A stretch of DNA of 38,298 nucleotides from a virus. Below, in pieces: positions 1,847-37,231 of the stretch (positions are counted from its first letter, which is position 1; each line of letters starts with the position of its first letter). The stretch lies in the IMG/VR virus record IMGVR_UViG_3300036851_000070, positions 1 to 38,298 of that record; one strand, given 5' to 3'. The notes under the pieces were generated by a model. It did not search any database and was not told the origin of the DNA. It saw only the letters and a program-made list of their open reading frames with translations. The translations under genes and the position numbers were made by a program.

Positions 1847-3916
1847 CTAAGAGATCGAATAGACGATCGTGCCATCGGAGAATCCCTTGCTGCCTGCTGC
1901 AGCAAACGCATCGCCATTGGGTCCGGAGAAGAAGGTGAACGTGCCACCGGTTGAGAGCGTCGAAGTGCCAAATTTCCCGCTCCCGCCGTCTACGACATGA
2001 GAGAGAAATGCCCTGGCGACACGCGGGCGCAGCTCCGTAGGTAATCCGGTGCCTGTCATGGCGGTCGTGTTGGAGGTACCGGTGATGTTGGCGTTGGTGG
2101 ACAGGAGGACAGAGGTGCCATTCGCCTCCCACTCCACCGTCCCTGTGGTTACAGCATCCATCCCGGTCAGGGTCAATGTGAATGAGCCACGTGCGTAGTA
2201 GCGGAAGCCCACGGGCGTGCCACCACTGAAGGTGAGTGGCGTACCGCTCTCGATGAGATTCGGCCCGATCTCGTTGTCCTCGGACAGGCTGTCGATTGCA
2301 ATGGCGGTCGTAACCGCGTCGATCGAATTGTGCTGGGCGGTGAAGAAATCACCGGCGACGTTGCTGATGCCGATGTCGAATCCGTCGATCCGGTTGCCGA
2401 GAACGTTCACGCCATCCTGGTTGGAGGCGCCTGCGATGCCGATGTTGCCGGCGAACGCCTGGTTCGCGGTGATGTGGTTGTTCTCGATGGCGACATTGCC
2501 CCTGCGCACGGCGCCCAACGCGATCAGCCGCACCCCACACGTGACGGCCGCGGCATTCTCGGTGGCGATCCAGTTGTCCCGCACCGTGCAGCCGCCATCG
2601 ACCTGTGTCAGCCGAACCCCCACATCCTTCGCGAAATCGATGTCGCTGCCGCGCACGCCACTGTTCAGCACCTGCTCAAAATCGACGCCAATATCGTAGG
2701 CATAGATATGGCAGCCCTCGACCTGCACGTCCTCCGGGCGCAGCGCATCGGCTTCGGATGTCCAAACCCCTTTGGTGCCGCCCGCCCCGGTGATGCTGTC
2801 ATAGATGAATGCACAGTCCAGGACCTTCGTGACGATCGAGCGCTTGTGCACCTGGAGGCCGATGTAATTGTTGAAACCATAGATCCGCTCAAACGAGCAG
2901 TTCCACATGCCTCTGGCAAATACCCCCTTGCCGAACCCCTCGATGTACAGCTCGCGGAAGGTGACTCCCGTAATACGGGCCGTTATAGAATCCAGATCGC
3001 ACTTGATGCCAACCCGGTTTGCGCCCGTCACTGCACTGGCGGAGATGAGTGCAAAGTCTCTGAAGAATCGAGCGCCGCCCACCGTCTCCTGCCCGGCGAA
3101 AGTGAGCCCGTCGCAATCATCCGGCTGCAGGATGCTGTAGCGCCCCTCGCCATAGAGGCAGGCGCTCTCATTGACTGTGATGGTGGTGGTGTATCTCCAT
3201 GTGCCGGGTGGCGCATAGGCGGCGATACTGCCCTCAGCGGAGACATCGAGCGCCGCCTGGATGGCTGCCGAATCGTTAACAATTCCATCACCAATGCCGC
3301 CGTAGCGGCGGAAATCCCCGGACGGATAGATGTAGTTGACCGGCGTCACCCCGGCGGCGAGCTCGGCGGCGCTCTGCGGGTTGAGCAATCCACCGATGAG
3401 CGACTGCGTCAGTGTCGTCAGCGCAATGGCTGCTGCAGGCTCAAGCTCCCCATCGGCATTGATGAACAGATACCGCTCTTCCCAGCTCGAGATGGGATCG
3501 AGCTCCAGCTCACTACTGGGCTGCGGATTGCGCAGTGACAGCCGCACTGCGCGGCCGATATTCCGCTCGAGCTGCTGCATCCACATCGTGATGCGGTCCA
3601 GCTCGTCATTCATGTCGGCGGAGCTACGCGGGCCGTTCTGCTGGAAATCAGTGTCGCGCTCGATAGGAACATCACGATAGATCGTGATGATGTGGCCGGC
3701 GGTGCGCCCGATCAGAAAAGTAACGGTACCGCCATTGTCATCGCCTTCACCGCTGACGGTGTAGTCCGTGCCCAGCGCCTGCAGCGTGTCATTGTCGTAG
3801 ACGACCAGGTTGTCGTCCTCGAAGATCGGGAACGGGTACGGGAAGGCTGTTTGACCACCAGTCGCGGTGTACTGATCGAGCGGCTCGATATCTTGGACAT
3901 TGTCTACGCTGGGCAT
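1847..3916 (-). CDS. Tailspike: T7-fibre-like N-terminus with pectate-lyase-type beta-helix
   Basis: A 689-residue receptor-binding tail protein. Residues 1 to about 150 look like the phage T7 tail-fibre anchor (TGGQTAFPYPFPIFEDDNL, then RDTDFQQNGPRSSADMNDEL and a helical DRITMWMQQLERNIGRAV). A pectate-lyase-3-like start follows (YGGIGDGIVNDSAAIQAALD), with repeated short beta-strand turns up to about residue 560 (GNVAIENNHITANQAF, GVNVLGNRIDGFDIGIS). The C-terminal 120 residues are a beta-rich, Thr/Gly-rich domain. The spike probably binds, and may cut, a surface polysaccharide; no catalytic residues can be assigned by eye. It sits between the internal virion proteins and the lysis genes. 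Confidence 0.88.
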   Translation of the reverse strand: MPSVDNVQDIEPLDQYTATGGQTAFPYPFPIFEDDNLVVYDNDTLQALGTDYTVSGEGDDNGGTVTFLIGRTAGHIITIYRDVPIERDTDFQQNGPRSSADMNDELDRITMWMQQLERNIGRAVRLSLRNPQPSSELELDPISSWEERYLFINADGELEPAAAIALTTLTQSLIGGLLNPQSAAELAAGVTPVNYIYPSGDFRRYGGIGDGIVNDSAAIQAALDVSAEGSIAAYAPPGTWRYTTTITVNESACLYGEGRYSILQPDDCDGLTFAGQETVGGARFFRDFALISASAVTGANRVGIKCDLDSITARITGVTFRELYIEGFGKGVFARGMWNCSFERIYGFNNYIGLQVHKRSIVTKVLDCAFIYDSITGAGGTKGVWTSEADALRPEDVQVEGCHIYAYDIGVDFEQVLNSGVRGSDIDFAKDVGVRLTQVDGGCTVRDNWIATENAAAVTCGVRLIALGAVRRGNVAIENNHITANQAFAGNIGIAGASNQDGVNVLGNRIDGFDIGISNVAGDFFTAQHNSIDAVTTAIAIDSLSEDNEIGPNLIESGTPLTFSGGTPVGFRYYARGSFTLTLTGMDAVTTGTVEWEANGTSVLLSTNANITGTSNTTAMTGTGLPTELRPRVARAFLSHVVDGGSGKFGTSTLSTGGTFTFFSGPNGDAFAAAGSKGFSDGTIVYSIS

Positions 3917-3922
3917 CTTGGC

Positions 3923-4084
3923 TTACTCTCTGGCCGCATGAAATGGATCGCGGCTACGTGCGCCGTTGTCGGTATGACGCTGGTGATGTTCTCTGACCAT
4001 AATCCTGGCCGCCGAAAGCTCGGGCTCGCGCTGCTTGTCTTCGGCTGCGGTATCGGATTCGTCGTGGCGATGTAGTTGGCTCAT
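3923..4084 (-). CDS. Small polar ORF filling the gap before the tailspike (uncertain)
   Basis: A 53-residue reading frame starting MSQLHRHDESDTAAEDKQRE. Position supports it: its ATG overlaps the stop of the upstream internal virion gene (ATGA) and it ends 6 bases before the tailspike start, filling an otherwise empty gap in a tightly packed operon. Against it, the protein is very polar and the opposite strand carries a hydrophobic frame (3938-4075) with higher third-position GC. Only one of the two is likely real. Confidence 0.42.
   Translation of the reverse strand: MSQLHRHDESDTAAEDKQREPELSAARIMVREHHQRHTDNGARSRDPFHAARE
3938..4075 (+). CDS. Possible antisense two-TM membrane peptide (uncertain)
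   Basis: A 45-residue frame on the opposite strand: MKWIAATCAVVGMTLVMF, a charged turn SDHNPGRRK, then LGLALLVFGCGIGFVVAM. Two membrane helices with positive charges between them is a convincing small-membrane-protein layout, and about 73% of third positions are G or C. However, there is no clear ribosome-binding site, and no plus-strand promoter was found in this minus-strand region. Listed as an alternative to the minus-strand frame. Confidence 0.25.
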   Translation: MKWIAATCAVVGMTLVMFSDHNPGRRKLGLALLVFGCGIGFVVAM

Positions 4085-26115: not shown

Positions 26116-26318
26116 ACGCCGAATTCCGCGAGTTGCTTACGAGCATCGTCCAGCCGCCGCGCCTACGTGACCTGCAGCGGGAACGCGAGACTGCGTGCAT
26201 GGCTATCAAGGAATTCGGCGGTCAGGCCAACCACTACCTGCAGCAGAAGCGTCTCGCCGAGCTGCGGCTGGCCGAGATCGATGCACAGATCAAGCAGCAT
26301 TACGGAGTGATCCCCTAA
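26112..26318 (+). CDS. Small coiled-coil hypothetical protein
   Basis: A 68-residue helical protein (MNAEFRELLTSIVQPPRLRD, then LRLAEIDAQIKQHYGVI). The heptad-like charge pattern suggests an oligomeric adaptor. Overlaps both neighbours by a few bases. Unknown role. Confidence 0.58.
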   Translation: MNAEFRELLTSIVQPPRLRDLQRERETACMAIKEFGGQANHYLQQKRLAELRLAEIDAQIKQHYGVIP

Positions 26319-26782
26319 TGGCCGGTATCCCGACGTCCAGGCGTCACGGCTTGGCTCGCACAGCGGAGTACAAGTCATGGAAAGCCATGCGGGCCCGGTG
26401 CACTGATCCCGCGCATGCGCAATTCACTGACTACGGCGGACGGGGAATTGGAGTATGTCGGCGTTGGCTACATTCGCCTACCGAATTTGTGGCAGACATG
26501 GGCCTTCGCCCATCTCCGAATCATCAACTCGACCGGATCGACAACGATAAGGGTTACGAACCTGGAAATTGTCGTTGGGCTACGCCGAAACAGAATTCAC
26601 GAAATCGGCGCACAAACCTCCGGATCACATTCAACGGCCGAGTGACAACGGTTTCGGAGATCGTCGAAGCGACGGGTATTCCATACCTGCGAATTTGGGA
26701 GCGACTTAAAAGAGGGTGGCCCATTGAAAAAGCTCTTGCCTTAGCCCCGCACAAAGGGAAAAGAGATGCCGAACGTATTTAG
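26318..26782 (+). CDS. HNH endonuclease (free-standing homing type)
   Basis: A 154-residue nuclease with the phage AP2-associated HNH pattern: SWKAMRARCTDPAHAQFTDY, GGRGIGVCRRW, then LDRIDNDKGYEPGNCRWATP with N and H-type catalytic surroundings, and a basic NRRTNLRITFNGR linker before a helix-turn-helix-like C-terminus (VSEIVEATGIPYLRIWERLK). It would cut a specific DNA site and help spread its own gene. It begins on the last base of the preceding stop codon. Confidence 0.78.
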   Translation: MAGIPTSRRHGLARTAEYKSWKAMRARCTDPAHAQFTDYGGRGIGVCRRWLHSPTEFVADMGLRPSPNHQLDRIDNDKGYEPGNCRWATPKQNSRNRRTNLRITFNGRVTTVSEIVEATGIPYLRIWERLKRGWPIEKALALAPHKGKRDAERI

Positions 26783-28883: not shown

Positions 28884-29146
28884 TGGGCGAGGACGGACCC
28901 GGTTGGGAACAGCAGGAGGCGTATGAACGCGAGAGATGGGATGAAGAACAAGAACTCGAGCGCATACGCCTCCTGACTGAGGCGCTACGGGAAGAGACTA
29001 TCGCTTTCGAACAGGCGAACAAAGAATTTTGGGATAACTGGAGAACGATGTATGCCGAAGGTATTGCCACTGAGGGATCGGTTCGCGCAGTTCATCAAGC
29101 CGATGAACGCTCGCGGATGCCAACTGTGGCTAAGCGCACAGGATGA
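28883..29146 (+). CDS. Acidic helical protein, C-terminus overlapped by HNH gene
   Basis: An 87-residue protein starting MGEDGPGWEQQEAYERERWD. Residues 1 to about 57 form a charged helix; the last 31 residues (from about 29052) are read in a different frame across the start of the HNH gene. An overlap of 95 bp is unusual here and suggests that the HNH gene was inserted and the C-terminus was replaced by chance codons. Alternatively the frame is simply longer than needed. Confidence 0.5.
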   Translation: MGEDGPGWEQQEAYERERWDEEQELERIRLLTEALREETIAFEQANKEFWDNWRTMYAEGIATEGSVRAVHQADERSRMPTVAKRTG

Positions 29147-29528
29147 GCACGGCTATGGCTTGTTCTGGCACAGCGGACGTTCCGTGCGTGCTCATCGCGC
29201 ATCGTGGGAGATACACAGAGGCCCGATTCCCAAGGGAATGAAAGTCCTGCATCGCTGCGACACGCCTTCCTGTGTTAACCCGGCTCATTTGTTCATCGGC
29301 ACGCAGAAAGACAACATTGATGACATGCGCCGCAAGGGTCGTGATCGCTTTGATGCCAATCCCCCGCGCGGAGCACGCCAGTGGACTGCAAAACTGACGG
29401 ATGAAACCGTCAGAGAAATTCGGGCTGATAAACGAAAACAAACAGCCATTGCGGCTGCATACGGGATCACTCAAAGCCAAGTGTCCCGTCTCAAAAACGG
29501 AAAGCGTTGGCAACATTTAGGAGAATAA
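29052..29528 (+). CDS. HNH endonuclease with C-terminal helix-turn-helix
   Basis: A 158-residue homing-type nuclease: MPKVLPLRDRFAQFIKPMNA, SVRAHRASWEIHRGPIPKGM, then VLHRCDTPSCVNPAHLFIGT, the HNH core with Cys pairs, and NIDDMRRKGR, a family signature. The C-terminal ITQSQVSRLKNGKRW is a helix-turn-helix for DNA recognition. GGAGAA precedes the start. It overlaps the end of the previous gene by 95 bp. Confidence 0.85.
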   Translation: MPKVLPLRDRFAQFIKPMNARGCQLWLSAQDEHGYGLFWHSGRSVRAHRASWEIHRGPIPKGMKVLHRCDTPSCVNPAHLFIGTQKDNIDDMRRKGRDRFDANPPRGARQWTAKLTDETVREIRADKRKQTAIAAAYGITQSQVSRLKNGKRWQHLGE

Positions 29529-33295: not shown

Positions 33296-33673
33296 ATGGC
33301 TGAAGTCCCCTTTAACGCGCTCGCGCGATTGGCCGACACCAGAAAGGTGAAAGCGGTCGCTGCGTGGTGCGCGCGAAATCGAATCCTGACGTTCAGGGAT
33401 TCGAAGGGACGACCATGCACAACAGAGGCTGCGCTTGACCGCGCCCTCTTCCGCGGCAAGGATGCTGAAAACGAACCGAACTACGGACCGCCACCGTGGC
33501 AAAGCTCTCTTGCGGACTCTCAATCCCCGCTGTCGTCGAGAAGGACGGCCGGTACTACAAGATCATCCGCAACAAGTGGCACCCGCTCAGCAGGATCGAC
33601 GAAGGGGTCAACGCGCTTTACCGGGCGCTCTACGAACTCGACCCCACCCGGCCCGGGACGATCGGCGAGTTGA
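33296..33673 (+). CDS. Excisionase-like / DUF4224-like protein overlapping the integrase gene
   Basis: A 125-residue frame; the first 65 residues (MAEVPFNALARLADTRKVKA, AAWCARNRILTFRDSKGRPC, EAALDRALFRGKD) resemble the small helix-turn-helix proteins that commonly precede phage integrases and act as excisionases. The frame overlaps the integrase gene by 178 bp, and the overlapping part (Ser/Thr/Arg-rich, TGRSTNSTPPGPGRSAS) looks non-conserved. The real function is probably held in the N-terminal part. Confidence 0.6.
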   Translation: MAEVPFNALARLADTRKVKAVAAWCARNRILTFRDSKGRPCTTEAALDRALFRGKDAENEPNYGPPPWQSSLADSQSPLSSRRTAGTTRSSATSGTRSAGSTKGSTRFTGRSTNSTPPGPGRSAS

Positions 33674-34416
33674 TCAACGTGTACCGCGCCGCTGGCATGG
33701 ACGAGCTCGCCGAGGCCACCCGCCAGGACTATGGGAAGATGCTGCCGCGGCTCGCGCATCATTTCGGCCACATCCGTCTTGGAATGCTGAAGCCCTCGCA
33801 GATTGCGGTGTGGCTCGAGACGCGCCGGAAGGCCGGCAAGGGAGCGATCCGCGCTAACCGCGAGTTCGCTGTGCTGGCGAGCATCCACAAGTTCGGCATG
33901 CGCCAAGGCTGGGTCGAGGCGAACCCCTGCCGCGGCGTTCCCCGAAATACTGAGCGGCCGCGCAGCCGGGTCGTCACGGACGAGGAATTCTTAGAGGGCT
34001 TTAACCGCGCTCCTGAGGCGTTCCAGGACCTGATCGCAGCGGCCTACCTCTCAGGTGTCCGGCAGACCGATATCATCGCCTGGAGCCGCACAGCTCATTT
34101 GCGGCCCGATGGCATCCACTACGTCCAGAGCAAAACGCGCAAGCCGCACCACGTTGAATGGACCGATGCCCTGCGCTACTTCGTCCGGCGCGCGATGGCC
34201 CGATTCCCCGATGAAGACTTGGTATTCCTGAACACCCGCGGGCAGCCGTGGACGATCTGGGCGATCAACAGCCAGAAGCGCCGGCTGGAGCTGGATTGGT
34301 GCTTCAAGGATCTGCGGGCGAAGGCGCAGACCGATTCACCGCATTCCGTGCTCGGACACGGCGCCGCGCTCGAAGCGGTGTACCGAAAGGCGCTGCGCAC
34401 GAGGCCGGTGCGATGA
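33496..34416 (+). CDS. int: Tyrosine integrase
   Basis: A 306-residue site-specific recombinase of the phage type. N-terminal arm-binding-like segment GRYYKIIRNKWHPLSRIDEG (19-38); core-binding region (DYGKMLPRLAHHFGHIRLGM); catalytic domain with SGVRQTDI (R189), SKTRKPHH (K213/K215 region), FKDLRAKAQTD (R274, with K271 in place of the usual H) and LGHGA (H288), ending with VYRK (Y296 nucleophile). It uses GTG as start. It faces attP just downstream at 34456, and CTTAGAGG repeats flank that core. It catalyses insertion into a tRNA-Lys gene. Confidence 0.92.
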   Translation: MAKLSCGLSIPAVVEKDGRYYKIIRNKWHPLSRIDEGVNALYRALYELDPTRPGTIGELINVYRAAGMDELAEATRQDYGKMLPRLAHHFGHIRLGMLKPSQIAVWLETRRKAGKGAIRANREFAVLASIHKFGMRQGWVEANPCRGVPRNTERPRSRVVTDEEFLEGFNRAPEAFQDLIAAAYLSGVRQTDIIAWSRTAHLRPDGIHYVQSKTRKPHHVEWTDALRYFVRRAMARFPDEDLVFLNTRGQPWTIWAINSQKRRLELDWCFKDLRAKAQTDSPHSVLGHGAALEAVYRKALRTRPVR

Positions 34417-34421
34417 ATATT

Positions 34422-34606
34422 CTTAGAGGCTGCGGAGCCACCCTTAGAGGGAAATTGGTGGGGTGGGAGGGAATCGAACCCTCGACCAGCGGATTAAAAG
34501 TCCCCAAGACAAGCACGTGCCGCTGCAGTAACACGCATATTTTCCTCGCTGTCAGTCCTCTAGGTCGCATGTCTGGGGCTGCGGAAATACGGTATAGTCT
34601 TAGAGG
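34422..34606. repeat. CTTAGAGG repeats flanking attP (candidate integrase arm sites)
   Basis: The 8-mer CTTAGAGG occurs in direct orientation at 34422-34429, 34443-34450 and 34599-34606. A related reverse copy (CCTCTAGG) lies near 34555-34562. Two direct copies on one side and one on the other side of the tRNA-derived core is the usual layout of integrase arm-type sites. A fourth copy within the integrase gene (33990-33997) may be chance. Confidence 0.6.
34456..34505 (-). other. attP core: 3' half of a tRNA-Lys (UUU) gene
   Basis: Read on the minus strand this 50-bp stretch runs from the anticodon arm to the CCA end of a tRNA: loop CTTTTAA (anticodon UUU), variable loop TGGTC, T-arm GAGGG-TTCGATT-CCCTC, acceptor strand CCACCCC, A73, CCA. 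The 5' half is missing (the upstream sequence does not form a D-arm or acceptor strand), so this is not an expressed tRNA. It is the classic phage attachment-site copy that rebuilds the host tRNA-Lys 3' end after insertion. One anticodon-stem pair is mismatched, marking the edge of identity. Confidence 0.85.
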
Positions 34607-36180: not shown

Positions 36181-36402
36181 ATGGCCGAGATAAATCCTGG
36201 TACTAAAATCGCGCGCCTGATCGAGCGCATGAGGCCGTTAGCGGATTGGTATGCACAAAATCGGCCGAGCGTGGACACGATCCGCGTCACGGCGGATGAT
36301 CTAAAGCTACTAAGCGACAATGAGGCGGCTGCCATCGCCAATGGGATCTACGCCGACAACAAGGGCCTGAAGTGGCGCAACTTCTATCTCAAAAGCGCGT
36401 AG
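36181..36402 (+). CDS. Small helical hypothetical protein
   Basis: A 73-residue protein starting MAEINPGTKIARLIERMRPL with ADDLKLLSDNEAAAIANGIY and a basic, aromatic end. No overlap with neighbours. Unknown role. Confidence 0.55.
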   Translation: MAEINPGTKIARLIERMRPLADWYAQNRPSVDTIRVTADDLKLLSDNEAAAIANGIYADNKGLKWRNFYLKSA

Positions 36403-36427: not shown

Positions 36428-36529
36428 CGGGCGGTAGTGGAATCGGTAGACACAGCAGTTCTCTGCCGTCGGATCAGCTATCGCGCAGTAGCCCCGGCCC
36501 TGAAGGTTCGAATCCTTCCCGCCCGACCA
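36428..36529 (+). tRNA. Class II tRNA-like gene with aberrant anticodon arm (102 nt)
   Basis: The ends are tRNA-perfect: acceptor CGGGCGG pairs with CCGCCCG, then A73 and encoded CCA (ending 36529); the T-arm is GAAGG-TTCGAAT-CCTTC; the D-arm GTGG-AATCGGTAGA-CAC is typical of tRNA-Leu. The anticodon arm is not: in its place is GCAG-TTCT-CTGC, a four-pair stem with a four-base loop, so no anticodon can be assigned. A long variable region follows, with a GCTAT/GTAGC stem inside CGG/CCG. The total length of 102 nt exceeds a usual tRNA-Leu (about 85-87) and even tRNA-Sec. It may be degenerate, or a tRNA mimic. Confidence 0.65.
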
Positions 36530-36542
36530 TTGGAACTGAGCA

Positions 36543-36731
36543 ATGTTCGTTGAGTACGATCCGAAGCGGAAGACGTATACGCTGCGAGAGCAGGTAAGCG
36601 GGGCAATCCTATTCGCTCAGCTCTGTGAGGCTGCCACGATCATGAGACTTGAGGCGCCGCCTGAGAATGCAAAAGCGATCCTCTTCGCGGCTCGGCGAGC
36701 TGCTGGTAACTCAGAACAAGCTCGCACATGA
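36543..36731 (+). CDS. Small MFVEYDP-family protein (copy B)
   Basis: A 62-residue protein starting MFVEYDPKRKTYTLREQVSG, a diverged paralogue of the 35320 gene; both end with an AARRAA-type segment. It starts 13 bases after the tRNA-like gene. Function unknown. Confidence 0.6.
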   Translation: MFVEYDPKRKTYTLREQVSGAILFAQLCEAATIMRLEAPPENAKAILFAARRAAGNSEQART

Positions 36732-37231
36732 AAGTCTTCGATCAAACACTGTATGACCGGTTAGTCGACAAGATCCGATTCGATCTGGAGACAGCTTGCT
36801 GGGTATGGCACGGCAGCATGCATCCAACCGGCTACGGTGAATTCCACTACAAGGGCCGGAAGTGGAGCGCGCACCGCGCTATGTGGAAGGCCGTATACGA
36901 CGAGTTCGACGGTCTGGACGTTTGCCATCGATGCGATAACAAACGCTGCATCAGCCCTCTGCATCTCTACTTGGCCACGCATAAACAGAACCTACGGGAC
37001 GCGAGCAAGAGCAGGCTCTTACAAGGCCAATGGAAGACGCACTGCAAGCGCGGCCATCCTCTCAGTGGTGACAATCTCTACATCCAGCCGCAATATGGAT
37101 TTCGCGGTTGCAAGCAGTGCCAGAAAGATCGCAAGAATCAGAAGTGGATCGAAGATCCGGAATATCGAGCGCGTGTCTACGCACGCCAAAAGCTCAGGCG
37201 CGAACAGATGCGCCAAGCGAGGTCAGTTTGA
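36728..37231 (+). CDS. HNH endonuclease with extra zinc ribbon
   Basis: A 167-residue nuclease: CWVWHGSMHPTGYGEFHYKG, WSAHRAMWKAVYDEFDGLDV, then CHRCDNKRCISPLHLYLATH, the HNH core, and a second Cys cluster (THCKRGHPLSGDNLYIQPQY, GCKQCQKDRKNQKW). This architecture is common in phage free-standing homing endonucleases. It overlaps the paralogue gene stop (ATGA). Confidence 0.85.
   Translation: MKVFDQTLYDRLVDKIRFDLETACWVWHGSMHPTGYGEFHYKGRKWSAHRAMWKAVYDEFDGLDVCHRCDNKRCISPLHLYLATHKQNLRDASKSRLLQGQWKTHCKRGHPLSGDNLYIQPQYGFRGCKQCQKDRKNQKWIEDPEYRARVYARQKLRREQMRQARSV

Follow-up and report, generated by a model that had tools for sequence, protein, structure and literature searches.

The window, that is, the whole stretch of DNA that was analyzed (38,298 nucleotides, IMG/VR record IMGVR_UViG_3300036851_000070), corresponds to a podovirus record of 38.3 kb with T7-like portal, tail and internal virion proteins encoded on the minus strand and a terminase closest to those of Pelagibacter phage Hodr and Burkholderia phage BcepC6B. 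The phage is temperate and encodes an integrase (33496-34416). Directly beside the integrase gene, the minus strand reads as the 3′ half of a tRNA-Lys(UUU), from the anticodon loop to the CCA (34459-34504), which represents a candidate attP of the classical form; because this half adjoins the integrase, a tRNA-Lys gene is the probable site of integration. The attP tRNA-Lys sequence had no match in the genomes searched for a host.

On the plus strand, a 102-nt tRNA-like gene with an encoded CCA (36428-36529) sits cleanly between two open reading frames of the same direction, neither of which has a Pfam match: a small upstream frame of 73 amino acids (36181-36402), ending 25 nt before the gene, and a downstream frame of 62 amino acids (36543-36731), starting 13 nt past the CCA. 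The window also contains three HNH endonuclease genes at 26195-26782, 29052-29528 and 36728-37231 (+), the last of them 0.2 kb downstream of the tRNA-like gene. A member of the same HNH family lies near another phage tRNA-like gene (L187), and it is the sole family shared between neighborhoods: no conserved protein neighbor was found across the class of related genes described below, and the HNH link is probably a coincidence.

Another reading takes the gene for an attP tRNA fragment or an assembly artefact, which we regard as very improbable overall. The phage does encode an integrase, but the tRNA-Lys 3′ half adjoins it, whereas the tRNA-like gene has the 5′ as well as the 3′ half of a tRNA and is 2 kb distant; it was rejected as the integration site. 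In the nearest relative with an available sequence, whose tail protein is 73% identical and whose structural genes are shared, this region is absent. Searches for close homologues in phages returned nothing beyond D-arm or T-arm matches, and no homologue was found in plasmids, in relatives of the same phage, via the neighboring HNH protein or via the exact D-arm.

Architecture of the tRNA-like gene

ARAGORN reports exactly positions 36428-36529 (+) as "tRNA-???", a tRNA of unknown identity. The Rfam tRNA model RF00005 matches 36428-36526 over its full length (model positions 1-71 of 71) with 39.0 bits against a gathering score of 29 (E = 1.9e-6 for 1.1 kb, 1.5e-8 per genome); the default whole-window Rfam scan passed over the gene owing to its fast filters. 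In the minimum free energy fold, the 5′ acceptor strand CGGGCGG (36428-36434) forms seven of seven pairs with the 3′ strand CCGCCCG (36519-36525), beginning with a Pro-like C1-G72 pair, and A73 and CCA follow up to position 36529. The D-arm GUG-GAAUCGGUAGA-CAC (36437-36453), with three stem pairs, is of the class II Leu type and carries a motif common to 109 viral tRNA genes, mostly with Leu anticodons. The 17-nt anticodon arm is replaced by a pseudo-anticodon hairpin of 4 bp with a 4-nt loop, GCAG-UUCU-CUGC (36455-36466), followed by a 35-nt variable region (36467-36501, with U48 at 36501) that folds into a two-part arm, GUCGG/CCGGC plus GCUAU/GUAGC (36468-36498). The 5-bp T-arm GAAGG-UUCGAAU-CCUUC (36502-36518) is supported by both the fold and the Rfam match. 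The acceptor stem, D-stem, T-arm, A15-U48, A73 and CCA are thus all intact in a gene of ordinary 7/5 geometry that has no anticodon. These data confirm the central observation of the initial annotation, a gene with perfect tRNA ends and no decoding part: neither the covariance model nor any ARAGORN mode assigned an ordinary anticodon arm.

A 5-bp/7-nt arm with U33 is absent at the anticodon position, and deleting a single insertion, of whatever length up to 27 nt, never brings back such an arm together with a variable stem, which led us to reject an intron or single-insertion model. Two decoding readings are offered by ARAGORN, namely an 8-nt loop (GCCG) and, with introns allowed, a forced Pro(CGG) that contains an A.A mismatch and requires an intron of 9 nt. 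C1-G72 together with A73 is a bacterial tRNA-Pro signature, and the amino-acid identity of the gene is therefore uncertain. That it is a functional tRNA with an unusual decoding arm nevertheless appears very unlikely. Both readings contain stem mismatches, Pro(CGG) would need the 9-nt intron to be spliced and leaves a poor variable arm, and Pro identity also uses G15-C48, where the gene has A15-U48. We know of no bacterial enzyme that splices such a 9-nt intron.

The middle of the gene folds no better than about one in five shuffles (z -0.87, not significant), and the whole-gene folding z is -1.31. A pseudoknot between the anticodon-side strand and the variable-arm loop was considered and rejected, as it gave no signal (p 0.42). 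The GCAG-TTCT-CTGC hairpin described initially is present in the fold, but it does not exceed chance expectation: across the class, comparable mini-hairpins with 3-6-nt loops were seen 15 times against 13.1 expected, and they were dropped as evidence.

Comparison with tRNAs sharing the D-arm

As a control, we drew a sample of viral genes in which the D-arm motif GGTAGACAC is followed by a T-arm, allowing a spacer of 28 to 58 nt between the two motifs. A canonical anticodon arm with U33 is present in all 109 unique genes sampled, and the anticodon is Leu in almost every one, so the window gene is a true outlier among them. Its spacer is 51 nt, compared with 30-39 nt in 107/109 controls and 49-50 nt in the other two. 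The Leu-type class II body described in the initial annotation holds for most positions, including A15-U48, which is found in 107/107 controls; it does not hold for C1-G72, which occurs in none of the 107 and is therefore not Leu-like. Canonical class II bacterial tRNA-Leu shares with the gene the D-arm sequence, A15-U48, the T-arm, A73, CCA and a long variable arm. Of the features of a functional tRNA-Leu, the gene thus retains the 7-bp acceptor, the D-arm, the 5-bp T-arm, A73 and CCA; it has neither the 5/7/5 anticodon arm containing U33 nor a Leu anticodon, begins with C1-G72 in place of G1, and has a variable region above normal length.

A class of phage Leu-type tRNA-like genes without an anticodon arm

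Viral contigs (IMG/VR) were scanned for a Leu-type D-arm followed by a T-arm at a spacer of 44-66 nt, which yielded many matches. A canonical anticodon arm is lacking in 103 of 134 long-spacer genes with at least six acceptor pairs, and the 31 that have one mostly belong to a group of their own, marked by the anticodon GUU and by G73. A TCTGGGG group (L068, L071, L095, L124 and similar loci) comprises phage tRNAs with class II bodies, a canonical GUU (Asn) loop, G73 and a long variable arm. A second scan, based on the commonest acceptor, AGTCAGG, gave at least 142 unique middles of 27-75 nt, with several different copies per contig (L217, L288, L369). Genes of this AGTCAGG class (L063-L182, L287-L388) have conserved ends, AGTCAGG-TGGCGGAAT...CCTGACT-A, enclosing hypervariable middles and pseudoknots with covariation. 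Rfam returned only weak tRNA matches, or none, for ten loci of the class.

At positions not forced by the search, the AGTCAGG subgroup has perfect acceptors in 43/45 genes, D-stems in 44/45 and T-stems in 43/45, equal to the integrity of the control bodies (acceptor 105/107, D-stem 106/107, T-stem 106/107). The remaining matches are more mixed (39/51 perfect acceptors), partly owing to a start misplaced by one base. The middles of the class are more stably folded than their shuffled counterparts (mean z -1.21 +/- 0.15), the two-arm plan is correctly placed in 27 cases where chance predicts 11.6, and complementarity between the anticodon-side strand and the variable-arm loop reaches p<0.05 in 16/102 cases (Fisher p ~1e-6). 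The tests on bodies and middles alike were picked after seeing the data, and their clusters are only roughly independent. Covariation is illustrated by GACCC/GGGTC in L193, which becomes GACCA/TGGTC in L070, and by the GTGCCATTGGGG group, where a C-G/T-A swap couples the two strands. Two otherwise dissimilar armless genes, L188 and L205, have in common an 11-nt motif, GAGTGATATCC, in the variable region. Inspection by eye for a tmRNA-like mini-ORF in the class revealed AT-rich middles with many stop codons, and the idea was dropped.

Members of the class also occur, unannotated, in isolated Enterococcus phages: a full, pseudoknotted copy in EH-TP1 (L225, around 3900-4030) and an internally shortened one in phiFL2A (L224, around 3980-4033), each with an ordinary tRNA after it and upstream of the terminase genes. 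No description of phage tRNAs without an anticodon arm was found in the literature searched, which was without most subscription journals and bioRxiv preprints, and the class appears to be undescribed there. It is a more interesting result than the window gene itself.

The window gene fits this class by architecture, having a Leu-type D-arm, an intact acceptor and T-arm, a long spacer and no canonical anticodon arm; like the AGTCAGG and other armless phage genes, it combines an intact body with a replaced anticodon region and an enlarged variable region. It does so without the strongest signs of the class, since many armless genes have a pseudoknot and an A1-U72 acceptor pair and the window gene has neither, although the pseudoknot is confined to part of the class. 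Its middle shows no sequence similarity to those of other members. We tentatively propose, at somewhat short of even odds, that phages of diverse kinds carry such genes, in which a hairpin or pseudoknot replaces the anticodon arm while purifying selection preserves the features recognized by RNase P, the CCA enzyme, LeuRS and EF-Tu, and that the window gene is one of them. The initial suggestion that selection kept the processing and EF-Tu parts and not the decoding part finds support in the class, where AGTCAGG bodies equal those of normal tRNAs; for the window gene by itself selection is not demonstrable, as its middle is not significantly structured and no homologue was found.

Relation to known tRNAs and tRNA-like structures

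Close architectural parallels include Leu-core tRNAs with long two-part variable arms and non-Leu anticodons (bacterial L228, L233, L258 and L278; phage L198), which share with the window gene the D-arm, the two-part variable arm, A73 and CCA, and in several of which the variable arm begins with CG after the anticodon stem, as it does here. They keep a normal 7-nt anticodon loop, however, which the window gene does not. Bacterial tRNAs of this kind (L228, L267, L233, L237, L246, L247, L258, L261, L264, L270, L274 and L278; L226, L240, L242 and L254) carry the non-Leu anticodons CGC, GGC, GCC, GGA, TGG and GTC, with several per genome, and would misread other codons if they are charged by LeuRS. 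Several other bacterial tRNA-Leu genes contain internal partial tandem duplications (L232, L243, L245, L260, L280, L284).

These tRNAs also bear on the possibility that the window gene is a recently broken tRNA, a pseudogene in which a Leu-core tRNA with a long two-part variable arm had its anticodon loop shortened by about 5 nt, too recently for decay to have reached the rest. Two-part variable arms of 25-35 nt accompany canonical anticodon arms in bacterial and phage Leu-core tRNAs such as L278 (35 nt) and L198, and the L198 sequence GCAGC-CUUGGAA-GCUGC followed by CGGG is about 5 nt longer than the window sequence GCAG-UUCU-CUGC followed by CGUC. Because one such deletion would explain the gene, which has neither a homologue nor significant structure in its middle, a fresh pseudogene is a serious rival, if on balance a somewhat doubtful one, and the window copy taken by itself is not provably more than a recently damaged tRNA. 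Against it, every tRNA-defining position outside the anticodon region is perfect, so the damage must be very recent, and comparable genes with intact bodies occur in many phages, which decay does not predict.

More distant systems share single features with the gene. The tRNA-like domain of tmRNA likewise consists of an acceptor and T-arm around a non-anticodon insert, but the window gene has no mRNA-like part, has G3-C70 in place of G3-U70 and retains a full D-stem; with no RF00023 match listed at the gene, tmRNA was rejected. Allo-tRNAs and tRNA-Sec (8/4, 9/3, 8/5) are also class II tRNAs with an unusual cloverleaf, in contrast to the ordinary 7/5 geometry found here without an anticodon. 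A tRNA-Sec, with its 8-bp acceptor, 6-bp D-stem and UCA, was likewise rejected, given the 7-bp acceptor, the 3-bp D-stem and no listed match to a Sec model. The 3′ TLS-Tyr of Brome mosaic virus is a chargeable tRNA mimic without an anticodon and with a 4-nt pseudo-anticodon loop (PMC9976931). The window gene resembles it in both the missing anticodon and the 4-nt loop, although TLS-Tyr forms the end of an RNA virus genome and has no sequence relation to the gene.

A proposed non-decoding tRNA mimic

We favor, at roughly even odds (a probability of about 0.5), the reading that the window gene encodes a non-decoding tRNA mimic that is matured by the host, possibly aminoacylated, and acts as a decoy. 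Its most likely ancestor would be a class II tRNA that had a Leu-type core and a long variable arm in two parts and then lost the anticodon loop. It would be transcribed within the co-directional region of small genes, and host RNase P could then cut at C1 and the transcript be trimmed to the encoded CCA, yielding a stabilized RNA. Through A73, the D-loop/T-loop contacts and the long variable arm, this RNA could bind LeuRS and perhaps EF-Tu, with no reading of codons. It may thereby compete for a host factor that recognizes the tRNA body or 3′ end, candidate targets being an aminoacyl-tRNA synthetase, a tRNA-end-modifying toxin or a tRNA-acting defense enzyme.

Charging with leucine is suggested by A73, the D/T core and published LeuRS rules. 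In E. coli minimal variants, A73 and the D/T-loop contacts suffice for leucylation, changes to the variable arm are tolerated, and tRNA-Leu can be aminoacylated without its anticodon arm, which LeuRS editing does need (PMC9976931). On these rules, a non-decoding but chargeable tRNA-Leu is plausible.

The intact body, the clean position between co-directional frames, the outlier status, the recurrence of long-spacer armless genes and the structured and covarying middles of the class count for the mimic. The lack of a homologue, the middle without significant structure, the missing pseudoknot, the chance-level frequency of short anticodon-position hairpins in the class, C1-G72, the nearest relative without the gene and the lack of a partner neighbor count against it. 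Among the functions put forward in the initial annotation, a decoy for host anticodon nucleases is unlikely, as the part that they cut is gone from the gene. A maturation handle or a tRNA in decay may still apply, and so may a decoy whose targets recognize the body of the tRNA.

Implications for phage tRNA biology

The usual explanations for phage tRNA genes, codon use and resistance to anticodon nucleases, each need a tRNA that decodes. The model in which phage tRNAs escape anticodon nucleases (PMC10264068) is not directly applicable here because the escaping tRNA must still decode, and a gene with all tRNA features but decoding would serve neither purpose. A recurring class of such genes, if true, would imply that the shape of a tRNA serves phages in some other way, possibly competing for tRNA-binding host factors, supplying aminoacyl-RNA or stabilizing another RNA, and the class is directly accessible in isolated Enterococcus phages such as EH-TP1.
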